Origin: Mongoliibacter sp.
GTDB taxonomy: Bacteria; Bacteroidota; Bacteroidia; Cytophagales; Cyclobacteriaceae
Direction of reading: 5' to 3'
NCBI RefSeq assembly: GCF_007692705.1
Contig: NZ_REBN01000277.1
Span: 1-44,031, forward strand
DNA: 44,031 nt
The notes under the pieces: generated by a model
What the model was told of the DNA's origin: nothing
Database searches by the model: none
The model's input: the letters and a program-made list of their open reading frames with translations, nothing else
Made by a program: the position numbers and the translations under genes
Shown here: in pieces, positions 12,981 through 20,379 of the stretch
Layout of the letters: the number at the start of each line of letters is the position of its first letter
Numbering within the stretch: position 1 is the stretch's first letter

Positions 12981-13011
12981 TTGAATCAGCTTAATGAAAG
13001 GTATATATTTG
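12981..13011 (+). promoter_or_regulatory. tamB-tamL promoter
   Basis: TTG at 12981-12983 and TATATTTG at 13004-13011 are separated by 20 bp, matching the Bacteroidota primary sigma factor pattern TTG-N17-23-TAnnTTTG. Transcription would begin near 13018, before the tamB open frame opens at 13031. This is the best full promoter match in the window. Confidence 0.6.
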
Positions 13012-13075
13012 TGATTGAATAGGGTTTTAAATTTCACTAATTATCAGACTATACATCCTTAAATTTTTAAAAATA

Positions 13076-16000
13076 TTGGGTATCACCTTGACGGTTCTAT
13101 TTGTCTTGGTGATTGCTTTGATTTTATTTATCAGGAGTCCTTGGGGTCAGGATATAATAGTAAATAAAGCGACTTCCTACGTGAGTGGTAAGACCTCTAC
13201 CAAAGTTTCCATAGACAGACTTTTTGTGACTTTTTCGGGAAATTTATTTCTGGAGGGTTTATTTCTGGAAGATTTAAACGGAGATACGCTTATTTATTCC
13301 AAAAACATAGAGACTGGAGTGGCTATAAGACCATTGATCAGTAGTGGAGATATCAAAATCTCTACTTTGCAATGGGAAGGGTTAAGAGCAAATATTAATA
13401 GGGATGCTGATAAAGGTACTTTTAACTTTGATTTTTTGATCGATGCTTTTACTGAAGAAGAAGATGATGATGATGTCACTGATAAAAGTCCGAATGACGT
13501 AGACAATGCAGGAGAGGGGTCAAAATTTCCCAGACTCACCGTTGGTCCTATTAATTTTAAGGATTTCAGAATCAGGTATTATGATGGGGAATTAGGAGTT
13601 GACCTTAGCGCAGACTGGGATGAAATTCGGGTGAGATTAGATGAAATTGACCTGAACAAAATGAATTTCGGAATAGATGAATTTTCCATTATCGGCTCCA
13701 AAATTGACTACAGGCAATTTAAAGCTTTTCCTGAGCCTGAAGAATCAACAGACTCCGATTTACCACTGCCACTTTTGGTTCTTGAGAGATTTAATATCAA
13801 GCAGGCAAACTGGAAATTTCATTCCATTCCGGATGGCATAGAGGCTAATTTGGATATAGGAGACTTTTGGGTAGAATTGCCAGAGGCTGATCTTGAACAA
13901 CAAAAGATTTTGCTGAAATCATTTGGGCTCCATGATTCTGATATTAACATCAAAATGGTCTCTGGTACTGAATCGCCTTCAAGCTCCGAGCAATCAGTTT
14001 CAGATAGCATTCCTTTTGAATGGCCCGATTGGTTTATAGAATTGTCTGATTTTGATTTTAAAAATAACAACTTCAGCTACCAATCTGATAATGCTAGGTT
14101 GGTTAGGGGAGAGTTCAATCCGGACTTTATCAAATTTGAAGGGCTTAATCTACAGGCACATGGAATTTTCCTAAAAGATAAAAAAACGGGTTTGAATTTG
14201 GATGAGTTTTCATTTAGAGACCACAGTGGTTTGGACTTGAAAAGACTCAGCTTTGAATTAAAAGTCGATGACGAAAAAATTATTTTAGACAACCTGAGAT
14301 TTAGTGCTAATTCCACCAATTTAGAGGCTGGAATGCGGTTGGATTATACCTCCATAGACCAATTGATAAACAATCCTGATAGAAGCTCATTTGAGCTTAA
14401 CCTTAAGTCCTTTCAGACTGATGCTTCAATTGCTTTGTTTTTTGTTCCTGAATTGGGGCAAGAAAATTACTTTAAAGAAATTAGAAAAAAAGGGATTTCA
14501 GCTAGTGGCCACTTAAGGGGGGATATGCAGGACCTAGAAATCCCCAACTTTAAAGCAAGTTACGGCAAGCATACTTCTTTTTTATTGAATAATTTGACCC
14601 TTACGAATTATACAGATGTTGAACAGTTGTATGTTGACCTTTATAAATTTGAGTTTCAATCAAAGGAACGGGAACTAGTTGCATTATTGGCGGAATTTGA
14701 CATTGATTTTGATATTCCCCAAAATATTTCTCTTACCGCCAATGCTAAAGGAAGTATCCACCAACTCCATGCAGATGCTTCACTTAAATCGAGTGACGGA
14801 AATGCATTTTTTAAGGCCGATTTTGAAGATAAAACCAATATTCAATTAAAGACCTCAGTGGAGTTACAGGAACTTGATTTGGGTAAAATACTCCAAATCC
14901 CGGAGTTAAAGCCCATAAGTCTTAAAATGACAGCTGAAGGGGAAGGTTCCAACCTATATGATTTTCAAGGTTTTCTTGATACAGAAATTTCACAGCTTCA
15001 ATGGGCTGATTATGATCTTTCTGCTTTGGTGTTTAAGGTAGAGGCTAAGGATACGGTTGCAGACCTTCTCCTTTCCATTGATAAGGAAATCATTGATGTT
15101 CAGTTTGAAGCAAGAGCAAGATTGGATACAATCAATCCCGAGTTGACATTCATGTTGGATCTCAAAAACTTAGAGACACAGGCCATGAGGCTTACTGCCC
15201 AGGATATCAATGCGAGGATGAAACTAGGGGGAAAGATTTCAGGAAGCATGGATGATCTTAGAGCCGAAATCAAGCTTGAGGATGCCTTTATGTATTATGA
15301 TAGACAAGCATATCCAATAGGGCATATTGATTTGGAAGCAAGACTTTCTGACAGTTTGACTACATTAAAGTTGGATTCAGATTTCTTAAAAGGAGAAGCA
15401 GAAGCCAATAGCTCGGCCCAGGTATTGGGAAATGCCATGCAATCTTATTTTTCTGAATTGGTTACTGGAGAGGCTGACAGCTTACAGAATAAGTCCGTTA
15501 AAGCCAAGGCAGAATTTCAGTTTAAGCCTACACCTTTTATTGATCAGCTTTTGGTTGCTGGAATTGAGGAGTTGGATACAGTAAGTTTCACTTTTAATTT
15601 TGATGCAGCATTAGCCTCACTTCAGACGCAAATATACTTGCCAAACTTAGAATACACTGATGCAAAGATTAGATCCTTTGAGCTAGACCTTGATGGTGAT
15701 TCTAATAGCCTCAGCCTATCTGCCGGTTTTAAGGAATTGTTATATGGCCCTATCGATATGGGTGAAACAAGGGTTATCGGTACTTTTAAGGAGAATGATA
15801 TCAAATTTGCATTTTTATCTCTTTTAGATGATGATCCAATTATCGATCTGAAGTCAGTATTAAAATTAAGTGGTGATACTTTGGTTTACCACATTGATCC
15901 GGAAGGTCTGATATTCAATTCAAGGGCTTGGCAGATTCCTGAATCAAATGCTGTTTATTATGCTGAAAATCACCTCAGGTTTGAAGACTTTGTTTTTTCA

Positions 16001-18091
16001 AGAAATAATCAGGAGTTAAAGCTGAGTAATGAAATCCTAAGTACAGATGAGGAGCATGTCGGTGTTCAGTTCAAAGATTTTAACTTAAGTACATTTACCA
16101 GTTTTCTTAACCAGGAAAATCCCATTGTGAAGGGTACAGCCAATGGAGAGTTTACAGCGGTTAATCTTTGGGAGGCTGTTGGAGTATTGGCAGATTTTAA
16201 GGTAAGTAACCTTGAGGTTTTGGAAATTCCGCTAGGAGTACTCAGTATTGATGCAGAAGCAAGAACTTTGAAGGAATATGATTTTAAATTGGCATTGAAA
16301 GAGGGGATGTTGGATTTAGATTTGGATGGTGTCATTGAAGCAAGTGCAGAAAGCTCTCGTTTGGATCTGGAATTAAGGCTGAATGAATTCCAGATGGCTA
16401 TGATTGAAAAACTGGCTGGAGATGAACTTAGGAATACCCAAGGGTTTTTAAGTGGAAAAGTAAATGTTACGGGGAGTATGCAAGACCCTGTTTATGATGG
16501 GGTATTGGATTTTAACGATGTATCTTTAGTAGTAAGTCAGCTCAATAACAAATTTTCTGTGACAGATGATAAAATCAGAGTTGATAACCTTGGTTTGTAT
16601 TTTGAAGATTTTGATATAAGAGATGAGTCAGGACAGGAATTTAATATTGATGGAAAAATAGATACAGAAGATTTTTCTGAAATAGGTCTGGATCTTAAAA
16701 TACGTTCTGAAAATTTCCAAGTTTTGAATTCTACTCGTAGTGACAACGACCTATTCTTTGGAAGAGCAAATATCAGTTTGGATATGGATGTCAAAGGTAC
16801 AACTGAACTACCAAAACTTGATGTACAGTTGAAAATCAATAATGGCACTAATTTTACTTTTATAATTCCTGAAAGCCAGTTAGACGTAGTGGAACGTACC
16901 GGTGTTGTGATTTTTGTTAACCATGCAGATCCATATGATCTCCTAAACAAGCGGGAAACTGAGATCAGTACAAGGGGATTAGTTGGTTATGATGTCAAAG
17001 CAAATTTGCAAATAGATCCACAGGCTATTTTCAATGTAATTGTTGATGAAAGGACAGGTGACAACCTCAGACTGCAAGGTGAAGCTGACCTCAACATGTT
17101 GATGAATCCAAATGGTGACATCTCACTTTCAGGCAGATATGAAGTTAAAAGCGGACATTATGAACTCAACCTTTACAATCTGGTCAATCGTAGGTTTGAG
17201 TTGGCTGAAGGCAGTTCCGTGATATGGAATGGTGATCCATTAGACGCTAATCTGAATCTCAGGGCTATATACAATGTAAGGACCTCAGCTGCAGAGCTCA
17301 TGCAGGCACAGCTCAGTGGCTCTGGAGCAGACACTAGAAGTCAGTTTAGGCAAGTACTTCGTTTTCAAGTTTATTTGAATATTGGTGGCGAGCTATTACA
17401 ACCTCAAATCAGTTTTGATTTGGATATCCAAGAGCAGGACCGCGGAGCTTTTGGCGGAGCAGTATATAGTAAGATTCAGCAAATTAATGAAGAGGAAGAT
17501 GAGGTTACCAAACAGGTATTTGCGCTTCTTGTGCTAAATCAGTTTTTTCCAACAATGGGAAATGACGGTTCATCTGGAGGGTCGGTCAATATAGCCAGGT
17601 CAAGTGTTTCTCAGGTGCTTTCCTCTCAACTTAATGCCTTATCTGATCGCCTATTTGGCGAGTCAGGATTTAGTCTGGATATGGATTTGGATTCGTTTAC
17701 GGATTATGAGAATGGAGGAGCAGAAGACCGTACACAACTTAATTTAGCAGCGCGGCAAAGACTGATGGATGATCGCCTGATTATATCAGTAGGTGGTCAG
17801 ATGGACGTCGAAGGGGGGGCTCGTGAAAGGGCTGGGCAAGGTGATGCACTTTTTGGAGATGTAAGTTTGGAATATCTGTTGGATGAGAAAGGTCGGTGGA
17901 GAGCAAAAGCTTACCGTCGAAATCAGTTTGAATCTGTGATTGACGGACAACTTATAGTAACCGGAATTTCTTTTATTTTCAATAGAGAATTCAATGCATT
18001 GAAGGATTTGTGGAGACAAAGAGAGGTAGATGAAGCTATAGAAGAAGAAGACTTGGAACTGATAGATGATTTAGACGAAATAGAATATTAA
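13076..18091 (+). CDS. tamB: TamB-like translocation and assembly module protein
   Basis: This product of about 1671 aa is a very long AsmA/TamB-family protein that spans the periplasm as a hydrophobic beta groove. TamB works with an Omp85 partner in outer-membrane biogenesis or lipid transport. An N-terminal membrane anchor ends in LILFIRSPWGQD. More than 1200 residues of repeating beta-rich sequence follow (DFKIRYYDG, GRYEVKSGHYELN and similar), then the C-terminal DUF490 domain with LQGEADLNMLMNPNGDISLSGRY split over about residues 1335-1365. No ATG exists near the start. The TTG at 13076 is the first common start, but the frame is open from 13031. Translating from there adds three basic residues ahead of the anchor, which fits an inner-membrane anchor better. 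The stop overlaps the tamL ATG. Confidence 0.9.
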   Translation: MGITLTVLFVLVIALILFIRSPWGQDIIVNKATSYVSGKTSTKVSIDRLFVTFSGNLFLEGLFLEDLNGDTLIYSKNIETGVAIRPLISSGDIKISTLQWEGLRANINRDADKGTFNFDFLIDAFTEEEDDDDVTDKSPNDVDNAGEGSKFPRLTVGPINFKDFRIRYYDGELGVDLSADWDEIRVRLDEIDLNKMNFGIDEFSIIGSKIDYRQFKAFPEPEESTDSDLPLPLLVLERFNIKQANWKFHSIPDGIEANLDIGDFWVELPEADLEQQKILLKSFGLHDSDINIKMVSGTESPSSSEQSVSDSIPFEWPDWFIELSDFDFKNNNFSYQSDNARLVRGEFNPDFIKFEGLNLQAHGIFLKDKKTGLNLDEFSFRDHSGLDLKRLSFELKVDDEKIILDNLRFSANSTNLEAGMRLDYTSIDQLINNPDRSSFELNLKSFQTDASIALFFVPELGQENYFKEIRKKGISASGHLRGDMQDLEIPNFKASYGKHTSFLLNNLTLTNYTDVEQLYVDLYKFEFQSKERELVALLAEFDIDFDIPQNISLTANAKGSIHQLHADASLKSSDGNAFFKADFEDKTNIQLKTSVELQELDLGKILQIPELKPISLKMTAEGEGSNLYDFQGFLDTEISQLQWADYDLSALVFKVEAKDTVADLLLSIDKEIIDVQFEARARLDTINPELTFMLDLKNLETQAMRLTAQDINARMKLGGKISGSMDDLRAEIKLEDAFMYYDRQAYPIGHIDLEARLSDSLTTLKLDSDFLKGEAEANSSAQVLGNAMQSYFSELVTGEADSLQNKSVKAKAEFQFKPTPFIDQLLVAGIEELDTVSFTFNFDAALASLQTQIYLPNLEYTDAKIRSFELDLDGDSNSLSLSAGFKELLYGPIDMGETRVIGTFKENDIKFAFLSLLDDDPIIDLKSVLKLSGDTLVYHIDPEGLIFNSRAWQIPESNAVYYAENHLRFEDFVFSRNNQELKLSNEILSTDEEHVGVQFKDFNLSTFTSFLNQENPIVKGTANGEFTAVNLWEAVGVLADFKVSNLEVLEIPLGVLSIDAEARTLKEYDFKLALKEGMLDLDLDGVIEASAESSRLDLELRLNEFQMAMIEKLAGDELRNTQGFLSGKVNVTGSMQDPVYDGVLDFNDVSLVVSQLNNKFSVTDDKIRVDNLGLYFEDFDIRDESGQEFNIDGKIDTEDFSEIGLDLKIRSENFQVLNSTRSDNDLFFGRANISLDMDVKGTTELPKLDVQLKINNGTNFTFIIPESQLDVVERTGVVIFVNHADPYDLLNKRETEISTRGLVGYDVKANLQIDPQAIFNVIVDERTGDNLRLQGEADLNMLMNPNGDISLSGRYEVKSGHYELNLYNLVNRRFELAEGSSVIWNGDPLDANLNLRAIYNVRTSAAELMQAQLSGSGADTRSQFRQVLRFQVYLNIGGELLQPQISFDLDIQEQDRGAFGGAVYSKIQQINEEEDEVTKQVFALLVLNQFFPTMGNDGSSGGSVNIARSSVSQVLSSQLNALSDRLFGESGFSLDMDLDSFTDYENGGAEDRTQLNLAARQRLMDDRLIISVGGQMDVEGGARERAGQGDALFGDVSLEYLLDEKGRWRAKAYRRNQFESVIDGQLIVTGISFIFNREFNALKDLWRQREVDEAIEEEDLELIDDLDEIEY

Positions 18092-20379
18092 TGAGTGAAA
18101 GGTTTTACATATTTCTTTGCATGATTTTTCTGCTGAGCTCTTGCGGGGTGAAGAAATTTATTCCTGAGGGTGAGAAATTATACATTGGGGCCGAATTGGA
18201 CCTATCAGCTGAACTTCCCAAAAGAGAAGTAAATGAATTGGAGGATGAATTGGAAGGCTTACTAAGGCCTCAGCCAAACAGTAAAGTTCTTGGTCAGCGC
18301 TTTGGCCTTTGGGCACATTATAAAGGGAGTAAAGAAAAGCCTGGTTTTATCAATAAGTTTCTTAAAAATAGATTTGGTGAGAGTCCAGTCTACTTATCCG
18401 ATGTGCAGCCTGAAAGAACCATGGATATACTTGGAAATAGGATGGAAAACAAAGGTTATTTTTTCTATAAGACGGATTATAAAGTAGATGACAAGGAGAA
18501 ATTTGCTTCCATTAAATATGAAATTGATTTTTCCGAAGGCTATAAATTGAAAACTTATAAGCTTTTGGGAGATACTTTGGGTATCATGGAAGAAATTAAA
18601 AGAGATTTGGACAAAACTGAGTTGAAAGAGGGGACACGTTTTGATTTGGATAAATTGAAATCTGAAAGAGAGCGGATTGATAGGGCATTGAAGTTAAAGG
18701 GGTATTATAACTTTAATGCGGATTTATTGATTTTTGAATCCGACACCAACCAATATGAAAATAGAGGCTATGACCTTTACCTTAGACTTAAAAATGAAGC
18801 GCCTGAAAAATCACTGCATCCTTATACCATTCAACAAATAAGGGTATATCCAAATTTCACTGTAACTTCTGAAACGGAGGATCAGGACACTACCAGGGTA
18901 GGAGGGATCAAGGTGATCCAAGATGATATAGTTTTCCGTCCAGACCTTCTTGAGAATTATATACTTTTTGAACCAGGGCAAAAATTCAACCCTCAAACCT
19001 CAAGATTGACTTCCAATAGGCTCTCCAGTATTGGGAATTTCAGATATGTCAATATTACGTTTCAAGAGAGCGAGGAAATGTTAAATGATGGAACTTACCC
19101 ACTTGATGCCAGGATTTTACTATCACCTTTAGATAAAAGAGGTTTAAGGGCAGAAATACAGGGGGTTACAAAGTCTAATAGTTTTGTGGGACCTGCTCTG
19201 ATTTTGAATTACCAGAATAGAAACCTTTTTCGTGGAGGAGAGACTTTTAACCTAACTGGTAAAGTAGGTTACGAGCAACAGATTGCCTCAGGAAGCAGGG
19301 AAGCACTTAGGTCGATTGAACTAGGACTAACAGGTTCATTGATTTTTCCAAGAGTTTTGTTTCCAGTTCCAATTATGAACAGGTTCAATTACTCAATTCC
19401 TAAAACCAAGATTTCTTTGGGATATGAATATCAAAATAGAACTGATCTTTATCAGCTTAATTCTTATAAAGCTACATTTGGATATTTATGGAACGTCAAC
19501 AGGTATCAGTACCATGAATTTAATCCAATCAGCTTGAGCATTGTGGATTTGGCCAATACTACCCCCGTATTTGAGGAAATCCTTAATTCTAACCCATTTT
19601 TAAGAAGAAGCTTTGAACAGCAATTTATTTCGGGAATGAATTATACCTGGAATTACAATCAGCTGGTGGATTCTGAGCGTAAAAATCCGATTATGATTAC
19701 CTCTACCATAGATTTAGCAGGAAATTTATTTAAAGGTTTAAACAGATTGGTAGGTTCTGAAAATCCCGATTTCATTTTTGGATTGGATTATGCCCAATAT
19801 ATCAAAGGAGAGGTAGACTTTGTATATTACCATAGATTTACAGATGAACATAATTTGGTGACCAGGTTCTTTGGTGGTTTAGGTGTTCCTTTAGGGAATT
19901 CTTCTTCTTTACCATTCGTGAAGCAATTTTTTGCCGGTGGACCAAGAAGTGTCAGGTCTTTCAGGATAAGGTCTTTGGGCCCTGGTGTTTTTGTGCCTCA
20001 AAGTATAGGTACTGGAGGTTTCTTTGATCAGGCGGGAGACATAAGATTAGAAGGAAATATGGAATACAGGTTTCCTTTCAATAAGTATCTGAAGGGAGCT
20101 TTTTTTGTCGATGCCGGAAACGTATGGCTTTATAATGAAAATGAGGCACTCCCAGGAGGTAGGTTCAGTAGTGACTGGGCGGAAGAGCTTGGAGTAGGTG
20201 CTGGATTTGGATTGAGAATAGATATCCAGCTTTTTGTACTAAGGCTTGATTTGGCCATACCGGTTCGTAAGCCTTGGCTGGAACCTCAAGAAAGATGGCA
20301 ACAAAGTCTTGAGTTTAGAAGTGGGGAGTGGAGGAGAGAAAATATGGTTCTTAATTTTGCTATAGGATACCCGTTTTAG
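18091..20379 (+). CDS. tamL: TamL: lipoprotein TamA-like Omp85 outer-membrane protein
   Basis: The 762-aa protein is an Omp85/BamA-superfamily barrel of the type called TamL in Bacteroidota, a TamA relative carrying a lipid anchor. The signal peptide ends in LLSSC with lipobox Cys18. POTRA-like segments occupy about residues 20-340 (YKLKTYKLLGDTLG, LHPYTIQQIRVYPNFT, LRAEIQGVTKSNSFVGPAL). The C-terminal 16-strand surface-antigen barrel contains FFAGGPRSVRSFRIRSLGPG, whose RSF-R-R segment resembles the conserved loop 6 motif VRGF/Y of Omp85 proteins, and it ends FAIGYPF with terminal Phe. Its ATG overlaps the tamB stop (TAATG), so the two are translationally coupled. A terminator follows at 20488. 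Confidence 0.92.
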   Translation: MSERFYIFLCMIFLLSSCGVKKFIPEGEKLYIGAELDLSAELPKREVNELEDELEGLLRPQPNSKVLGQRFGLWAHYKGSKEKPGFINKFLKNRFGESPVYLSDVQPERTMDILGNRMENKGYFFYKTDYKVDDKEKFASIKYEIDFSEGYKLKTYKLLGDTLGIMEEIKRDLDKTELKEGTRFDLDKLKSERERIDRALKLKGYYNFNADLLIFESDTNQYENRGYDLYLRLKNEAPEKSLHPYTIQQIRVYPNFTVTSETEDQDTTRVGGIKVIQDDIVFRPDLLENYILFEPGQKFNPQTSRLTSNRLSSIGNFRYVNITFQESEEMLNDGTYPLDARILLSPLDKRGLRAEIQGVTKSNSFVGPALILNYQNRNLFRGGETFNLTGKVGYEQQIASGSREALRSIELGLTGSLIFPRVLFPVPIMNRFNYSIPKTKISLGYEYQNRTDLYQLNSYKATFGYLWNVNRYQYHEFNPISLSIVDLANTTPVFEEILNSNPFLRRSFEQQFISGMNYTWNYNQLVDSERKNPIMITSTIDLAGNLFKGLNRLVGSENPDFIFGLDYAQYIKGEVDFVYYHRFTDEHNLVTRFFGGLGVPLGNSSSLPFVKQFFAGGPRSVRSFRIRSLGPGVFVPQSIGTGGFFDQAGDIRLEGNMEYRFPFNKYLKGAFFVDAGNVWLYNENEALPGGRFSSDWAEELGVGAGFGLRIDIQLFVLRLDLAIPVRKPWLEPQERWQQSLEFRSGEWRRENMVLNFAIGYPF

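Follow-up and report, generated by a model that had tools for sequence, protein, structure and literature searches.

The window analysed here, a stretch of 44,031 nucleotides at its full length, is contig C209 of a 4.4-Mb Mongoliibacter genome (Cyclobacteriaceae). On its forward strand, an open reading frame of 1,686 codons (13031–18091) encodes a TamB protein, which matches the Pfam family TamB (PF04357) with 233.7 bits at residues 1193–1654 of the frame. Counted from the start codon that we favor, an ATC at 13043, the predicted coding sequence (13043–18091, forward strand) comprises 1682 amino acids, with a hydrophobic anchor at about codons 12–28 that follows a +3 segment and with the TamB domain near the C-terminus. 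Its stop codon is overlapped by 1 nt (TAATG) by the ATG of tamL2 (18091–20379, forward strand), an Omp85 lipoprotein gene with an Omp85 match, whose product contains a lipobox-like LLSSCG recognized by eye. A second, separate TamB-family frame of 1,540 codons is present in the same genome (G000:C250), and such a second TamB was found in all 20 clade genomes searched. This layout matches that of the TamB2/TamL2 genes of Flavobacterium johnsoniae (Fjoh_1899/Fjoh_1900), where the TamL lipoprotein gene likewise overlaps the stop of a TamB-family gene and a second, separate TamB is encoded in the genome (PMC12045153). Therefore, the window gene is best called tamB2 rather than tamB, the name used in the preliminary description. 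F. johnsoniae depends on its separate TamB but tolerates the deletion of tamB2; the parts of that paper that were covered do not discuss the start codon of tamB2 (PMC12045153).

The close spacing of the two genes is a general feature of the locus. At all 19 loci that possess tamL2 (the window, 18086–18095, and 18 others), the in-frame ATG closest to the tamB2 stop falls within −11 to +2 nt of it, and tamB2 and tamL2 are therefore probably translationally coupled. One locus, L128, has no tamL2 gene.

Upstream of the frame we predict a promoter of the Bacteroidota type (12981–13011, forward strand), consisting of TTG at 12981–12983, a 20-nt spacer, and the −7 box TATATTTG at 13004–13011; its identification relies on the −7 box consensus and its spacing. 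The TAnnTTTG string as such also occurs elsewhere in published literature. Between the −7 box and the putative start codon lies a stretch of 31 nt (13012–13042, forward strand), which includes the short leader, is free of coding constraint (see below), and holds an unconserved ATT at 13031–13033 as well as a second ATT at 13040 that directly precedes the ATC (ATT-ATC, 13040–13045). The preliminary description of this region was correct in several respects: the frame opens at 13031 after a TAA (13028–13030), a promoter-like box precedes it, no ATG or GTG occurs before the anchor, and the first common start codon is the TTG at 13076–13078. It had also noted that translation from this TTG would leave no basic residue in front of the anchor, while Arg, Lys, and Lys precede the anchor if the start lies well before 13076, and this applies as well.

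For comparison, 94 of 390 genomes of the family matched TamB2 at E ≤ 1e-50, and the N-terminal region was readable at 93 of the 94 loci (L030/G101 was left out). Codons were numbered by counting back from a conserved FIRSPWGQ motif after the anchor, which places ATC 13043 at codon −28, ATT 13031 at −32, and TTG 13076 at −17. Most of the following counts refer to a clade set of 52 genomes from 12 genera with similar N-termini, which includes the window and the genera Mongoliibacter (g1), Aquiflexum (g2), and Belliella (g40). This set was picked by genus after viewing the N-termini; one locus with TTG at −28 (L108, genus g38) hence falls outside it. The companion genome of the same genus (G001) belongs to Mongoliibacter ruber DSM 27929 (Cyclobacteriaceae), the sister species. 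Rates of change were taken from 25 close pairs drawn from the 52, which share no species, may share branches, and in a few cases cross genera.

According to the preliminary description, an ATG in close relatives would have pointed to a base error in the window. None was found: codons −45 to −14 are free of ATG in all 52 clade genomes, window included, and M. ruber has no ATG, GTG, or TTG until codon −7. Thus, we regard the lack of a conventional start in the window as real and as the result of neither chance nor a sequencing error. At codons −36 to −21, 46 of the 52 genomes contain no ATG, GTG, or TTG; the six exceptions carry TTG at −30 (L019, L020), GTG at −29 (L028), or TTG at −24 (L088, L089, L099). 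Over the wider stretch between −45 and −15, conventional codons are missing from 29 of the 52. An in-frame stop is located only 1–4 codons upstream of −28 in 26 of the 52 genomes, and the 25 nt before −28 are free of ATG, GTG, and TTG in any frame in 39 genomes and free of ATG in 49. With stops so near and no start in any frame, upstream initiation, whether in frame or by frameshift, is therefore unavailable in most species. An out-of-frame ATG does exist in the window at 12994–12996, upstream of the predicted transcript start, from which ribosomes might reach the tamB2 frame by frameshifting. Neither such a route nor an ATG hidden by a sequencing error fits the any-frame counts or the same absence of ATG in many separately sequenced genomes. 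We give this combined explanation practically no chance.

What the relatives do share is an isoleucine codon at −28. Of the 52 genomes, 31 have ATC here, 15 ATT, 3 ATA, 2 ACC, and one ACT, so that Ile codons occupy the position in 49 of them, and the codon is followed at −27 by Lys in 51 genomes and by Arg in the window. The near-cognate codon coincides with the point at which coding constraint sets in. Among the 25 pairs, differences at codon positions 1/2/3 amount to 69/76/71 at −44 to −38, 44/51/42 at −37 to −32, and 18/23/24 at −31 to −29, followed by 0/0/5 at −28 itself, where all five are synonymous. Downstream, they number 39/22/53 at −27 to −18, 107/43/129 at −17 to −3, and 68/29/216 at −2 to +20. 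Before −28, changes are spread about evenly as in non-coding DNA, and after it the third position leads; therefore, coding constraint begins at 13043. Codons −27 to −18 nevertheless change fairly freely, with 31 synonymous and 48 non-synonymous changed codons in the 25 pairs, and as judged from these changes the protein constraint there is moderate. The number of Lys and Arg residues at −28 to −17 stays between 3 and 5 in all 52 genomes.

These data bear directly on the choice among the candidate codons. The preliminary description had proposed a rare isoleucine start that would place positive residues before the anchor, and had favored ATT 13031. The first part is strongly backed by the relatives. 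ATT 13031 is indeed the first codon of the open frame, and ATT is a known near-cognate start; however, its column (−32) reads ATT in only 3 of the 52 genomes, AAT in the sister species, and ACG, AAA, TAA, or other codons elsewhere. In addition, 10 of the 52 genomes have an in-frame stop at or downstream of this column, with 1–3 codons between stop and −28, and the stretch before −28 that holds ATT 13031 is free of coding constraint. A start at ATT 13031, or at any other leader codon upstream of 13040, is thus hardly credible, and the tamB2 start of the window is probably ATC 13043.

A start at TTG 13076 would be the conventional solution, with the conservation upstream of it reflecting something else. 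TTG is a normal bacterial start codon, this TTG is the one picked by the ORF caller, and both infC and the tamB paralogue carry an aligned TTG at their start in the same genomes (see below). Furthermore, TTG is found at column −17 in 6 of the 52 genomes, and 18 of the 52, window included, have a TTG somewhere at −27 to −15, although in columns that are not common to the group. In those 18, a later conventional start may still be possible if loss of the anchor is the only ground considered. Against this stand the ATA of the sister species at the column of TTG 13076, the 29 genomes without any conventional codon from −45 to −15, which with a later start would be left with an incomplete anchor or none, the onset of coding-type change at −28, well before the TTG, and the missing positive residue ahead of the anchor. 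We therefore reject TTG 13076 as very unlikely and keep to ATC 13043.

The codon directly before the ATC is harder to set aside, and the start codon of the window is, from the alignment, uncertain by one. ATT 13040 (−29) could itself be used if the exact Ile codon drifted between −30 and −28 among species; Ile occurs at −29 in 17 of the 52 genomes, and three members of the clade apparently need a start at −30. Yet Ile is missing at −29 in 35 of the 52, compared with its presence at −28 in 49, and the pairs give no sign of coding constraint at −29. Use of ATT 13040 in place of ATC 13043 is accordingly improbable, albeit the least so of the alternatives.

The exceptions to the pattern at −28 are few. 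Thr codons occur there only in L084, L097, and L099 of genus g82, which must start elsewhere, and as all three have ATT at −30, this is probably their start. They represent three related species and look as if the Ile start had moved two codons upstream. L019 and L020 (TTG at −30) as well as L028 (GTG at −29) may start at the adjacent conventional codon. Outside the clade set, L108 supports the inferred position, as its column −28 holds a conventional start, TTG, which is followed by AAA and preceded by a stop two codons before.

On a quick tree, codon −28 underwent at least six third-letter changes, which exchanged C, T, and A, while none produced a G. An argument that ATG has been avoided was dropped, since only six changes on this tree are within chance. 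If all 49 rows other than L019, L020, and L028 are labeled as Ile starts, this label changes five times on the tree, with at least two changes forced by well-supported branches; as its root is arbitrary and it contains open forks as well as long branches, the tree favors neither a single gain nor an ancestral state.

The Ile start appears to be a trait of this gene. We surveyed the neighboring genes in 20 regions, the window and 19 regions of 15–20 kb from other clade genomes, and obtained 15 ortholog groups, the small ones of which were read without formal scoring. An aligned ATG is present in 19 of 19 tamL2 genes, in 11 of 11 genes of a GNAT group, and in two further groups (9/9 and 8/8), and in a fifth the start is ATG or GTG throughout (8/8). 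The group seeded by L115|9 looks antisense and was not used; in the group seeded by L122|7 the conserved start had been mis-called since the frame overlaps the upstream gene. As far as these neighbors show, Ile starts are not a general practice of the clade, and the invariant ATG of tamL2 in particular argues that the trait is gene-specific. Even among the other family members the gene mostly begins differently: 36 of 41 read have TTG at −29 to −31, 28 of them at −31, where the invariance of TTG is by construction because these rows were chosen for it. The remainder are L108 with its TTG at −28 and four loci with ATG (two of genus g28 at −29, two of genus g8 at −34), so that an ATG start of tamB2 is confined to four more distant members of the family.

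Conventional codons other than ATG are found at two other genes of interest. The paralogous tamB has an aligned TTG (TTG-GAA/AAA-AAG) in all 21 genomes read (L133, G000:C250:6000-13500, frame from 1653; L225–L244); in L237, earlier conventional codons also exist in a longer open frame. For infC, an aligned TTG was seen in 20 of 20 genomes read (L111, at about 1453; L205–L224; L222 was left out of 21). In many species this infC codon is directly preceded by ATT, in contrast to the ATT, ATC, or AUA starts of infC elsewhere. Taken together, both TamB genes seem to avoid ATG, with tamB2 of the 12-genus group going furthest.

The predicted promoter is conserved in a part of the clade. In 27 of the 52 genomes, a TAnnTTTG box precedes codon −28 by 24–33 nt, compared with about 0.018 boxes expected per 38-nt stretch, and these are all the clade members outside genus g82; none of the 25 g82 members has it. 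Some g82 loci have a TACATTTAC-like stretch at a similar place, 25–45 nt upstream of −28. In six rows of genus g47, which have TTG at −31, the TAnnTTTG box is 22 nt from that TTG, which puts it 31 nt away from column −28.

Shine-Dalgarno-like 4-mers 4–20 nt before −28 were counted in 3 of the 52 genomes, against 2.1 expected from shuffled sequences, and no strong Shine-Dalgarno motif was apparent in this stretch. The AGGG that the preliminary description had noted upstream of ATT 13031 is present in the window, just outside the 4–20 nt scanned, but no such motif is conserved among the 52 and it was discarded as a ribosome-binding site. This is in line with the fact that mRNAs of Bacteroidota naturally lack Shine-Dalgarno sequences (PMC6847099). 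Folding of 70 nt around −28 gave a mean z of +0.52 relative to mononucleotide shuffles (n = 52), meaning that this region is, if anything, less structured and that no structured regulatory leader was detected. Kozak-like A residues are also known at positions −6, −12, and −13. Together with the A at −3 described in PMC6847099, these positions are enriched within the leader and fit only moderately, but several downstream offsets score higher, and they were dropped as proof of the start.

We consider it very probable that tamB2 possesses a conserved near-cognate start, ATC 13043 in the window, and that this codon would throttle TamB2 synthesis without the help of a Shine-Dalgarno sequence. The mRNA would begin a few nucleotides after the −7 box (13004–13011) and carry a leader of about 25 nt devoid of a Shine-Dalgarno motif. 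Initiation at ATC 13043 would presumably use the initiator fMet-tRNA and thus yield Met at residue 1, giving the N-terminus Met-RLYILKFLKIL with three positive residues before the anchor in agreement with the positive-inside rule. The retention of ATC or ATT (rarely ATA) followed by Lys, or by Arg in the window, across 12 genera would most likely serve to keep a very large envelope protein scarce, and tamL2, with its ATG overlapping the tamB2 stop, would partly follow the low tamB2 yield. From the comparison of relatives we infer initiation at ATC, the low yield, selection for it, and the partial coupling of tamL2; expression tuning by a rare start is plausible. A low yield of TamB2 is likely because AUU and AUA starts reach about 10% of AUG expression in Staphylococcus aureus in poor medium (PMC13009471) and because sigR, with its GTC start, is repressed by IF3 (PMC5472188). 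One could further speculate that tamB2-tamL2 is an IF3-gated operon, in which an AUC/AUU start without a Shine-Dalgarno sequence makes the capacity for envelope assembly depend on how faithfully translation is initiated (IF3, fMet-tRNA, growth state), the weak start having been selected for, as both TamB paralogues and infC appear to avoid AUG. We regard this extension as rather doubtful.

In the papers considered, only a handful of bacterial genes with near-cognate starts have been studied well, namely infC, sigR, ccpN, and cvfC1, as well as pcnB, which reportedly has such a start, going by the title of one paper. The best known example is infC, encoding IF3, which starts with ATT in Escherichia coli, ATC in Streptomyces, and AUA in S. 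aureus, and whose near-cognate Ile codon limits expression (PMC5472188; PMC13009471). The proposed tamB2 start resembles it in the kind of codon and its presumed limiting effect, but infC responds to its own product (PMC5472188), and in the present clade it is infC that has TTG and tamB2 that has the Ile codon, with no conserved Shine-Dalgarno sequence. Streptomyces sigR starts with a GTC that is repressed by IF3 and is conserved throughout the genus (GTC in 32 of 34, GTT in 2; PMC5472188). Like tamB2, it does not belong to the translation machinery and has a conserved rare start; unlike tamB2, it is proven by experiment and possesses a ribosome-binding site that is both strong and conserved (PMC5472188), whereas the tamB2 pattern spans 12 genera. 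In S. aureus, ccpN (AUA) and cvfC1 (AUU) also have conserved near-cognate starts, which give about 10% of the expression from AUG in poor medium (PMC13009471). They differ from tamB2 in their extended Shine-Dalgarno pairing and in their products, as the cvfC1 product has 61 aa and that of ccpN represses transcription (PMC13009471), while TamB2 would be an envelope protein of 1682 aa. A strong or extended Shine-Dalgarno sequence beside the weak codon is common to sigR, ccpN, cvfC1, and infC of S. aureus (PMC5472188; PMC13009471).

Near-cognate starts as such are thus known; what would be new is a conserved one in an envelope gene and without Shine-Dalgarno support. Among the matches listed in a literature search, which largely lies outside subscription literature and so does not prove that nothing is in print, no title or abstract opening mentioned a near-cognate start for a TamB gene. 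If the proposed reading is true, an AUC/AUU start conserved across 12 genera of Bacteroidota would demonstrate that such codons can be maintained without help from a Shine-Dalgarno sequence, and tamB2 would provide a direct system for how ribosomes of this phylum choose weak starts. By implication, gene callers that accept only ATG, GTG, and TTG would truncate the N-terminus of TamB2, often together with its anchor, in these genomes.

Beyond the family, a class-wide census matched 71 of 395 genomes at 74 places. Of these, 30 came directly as loci, and 40 of the remaining 44 were retrieved. Most encode divergent TamB proteins that are unreadable by the motif, with too few close members to count. 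Six close members of the class (L138–L143) were viewed by eye, with no count drawn. A single ATG precedes the anchor in L140 and L143; L141 (G737, same class, other family) encodes a close TamB2 homologue without ATG, GTG, or TTG before the anchor and possibly represents an independent case.
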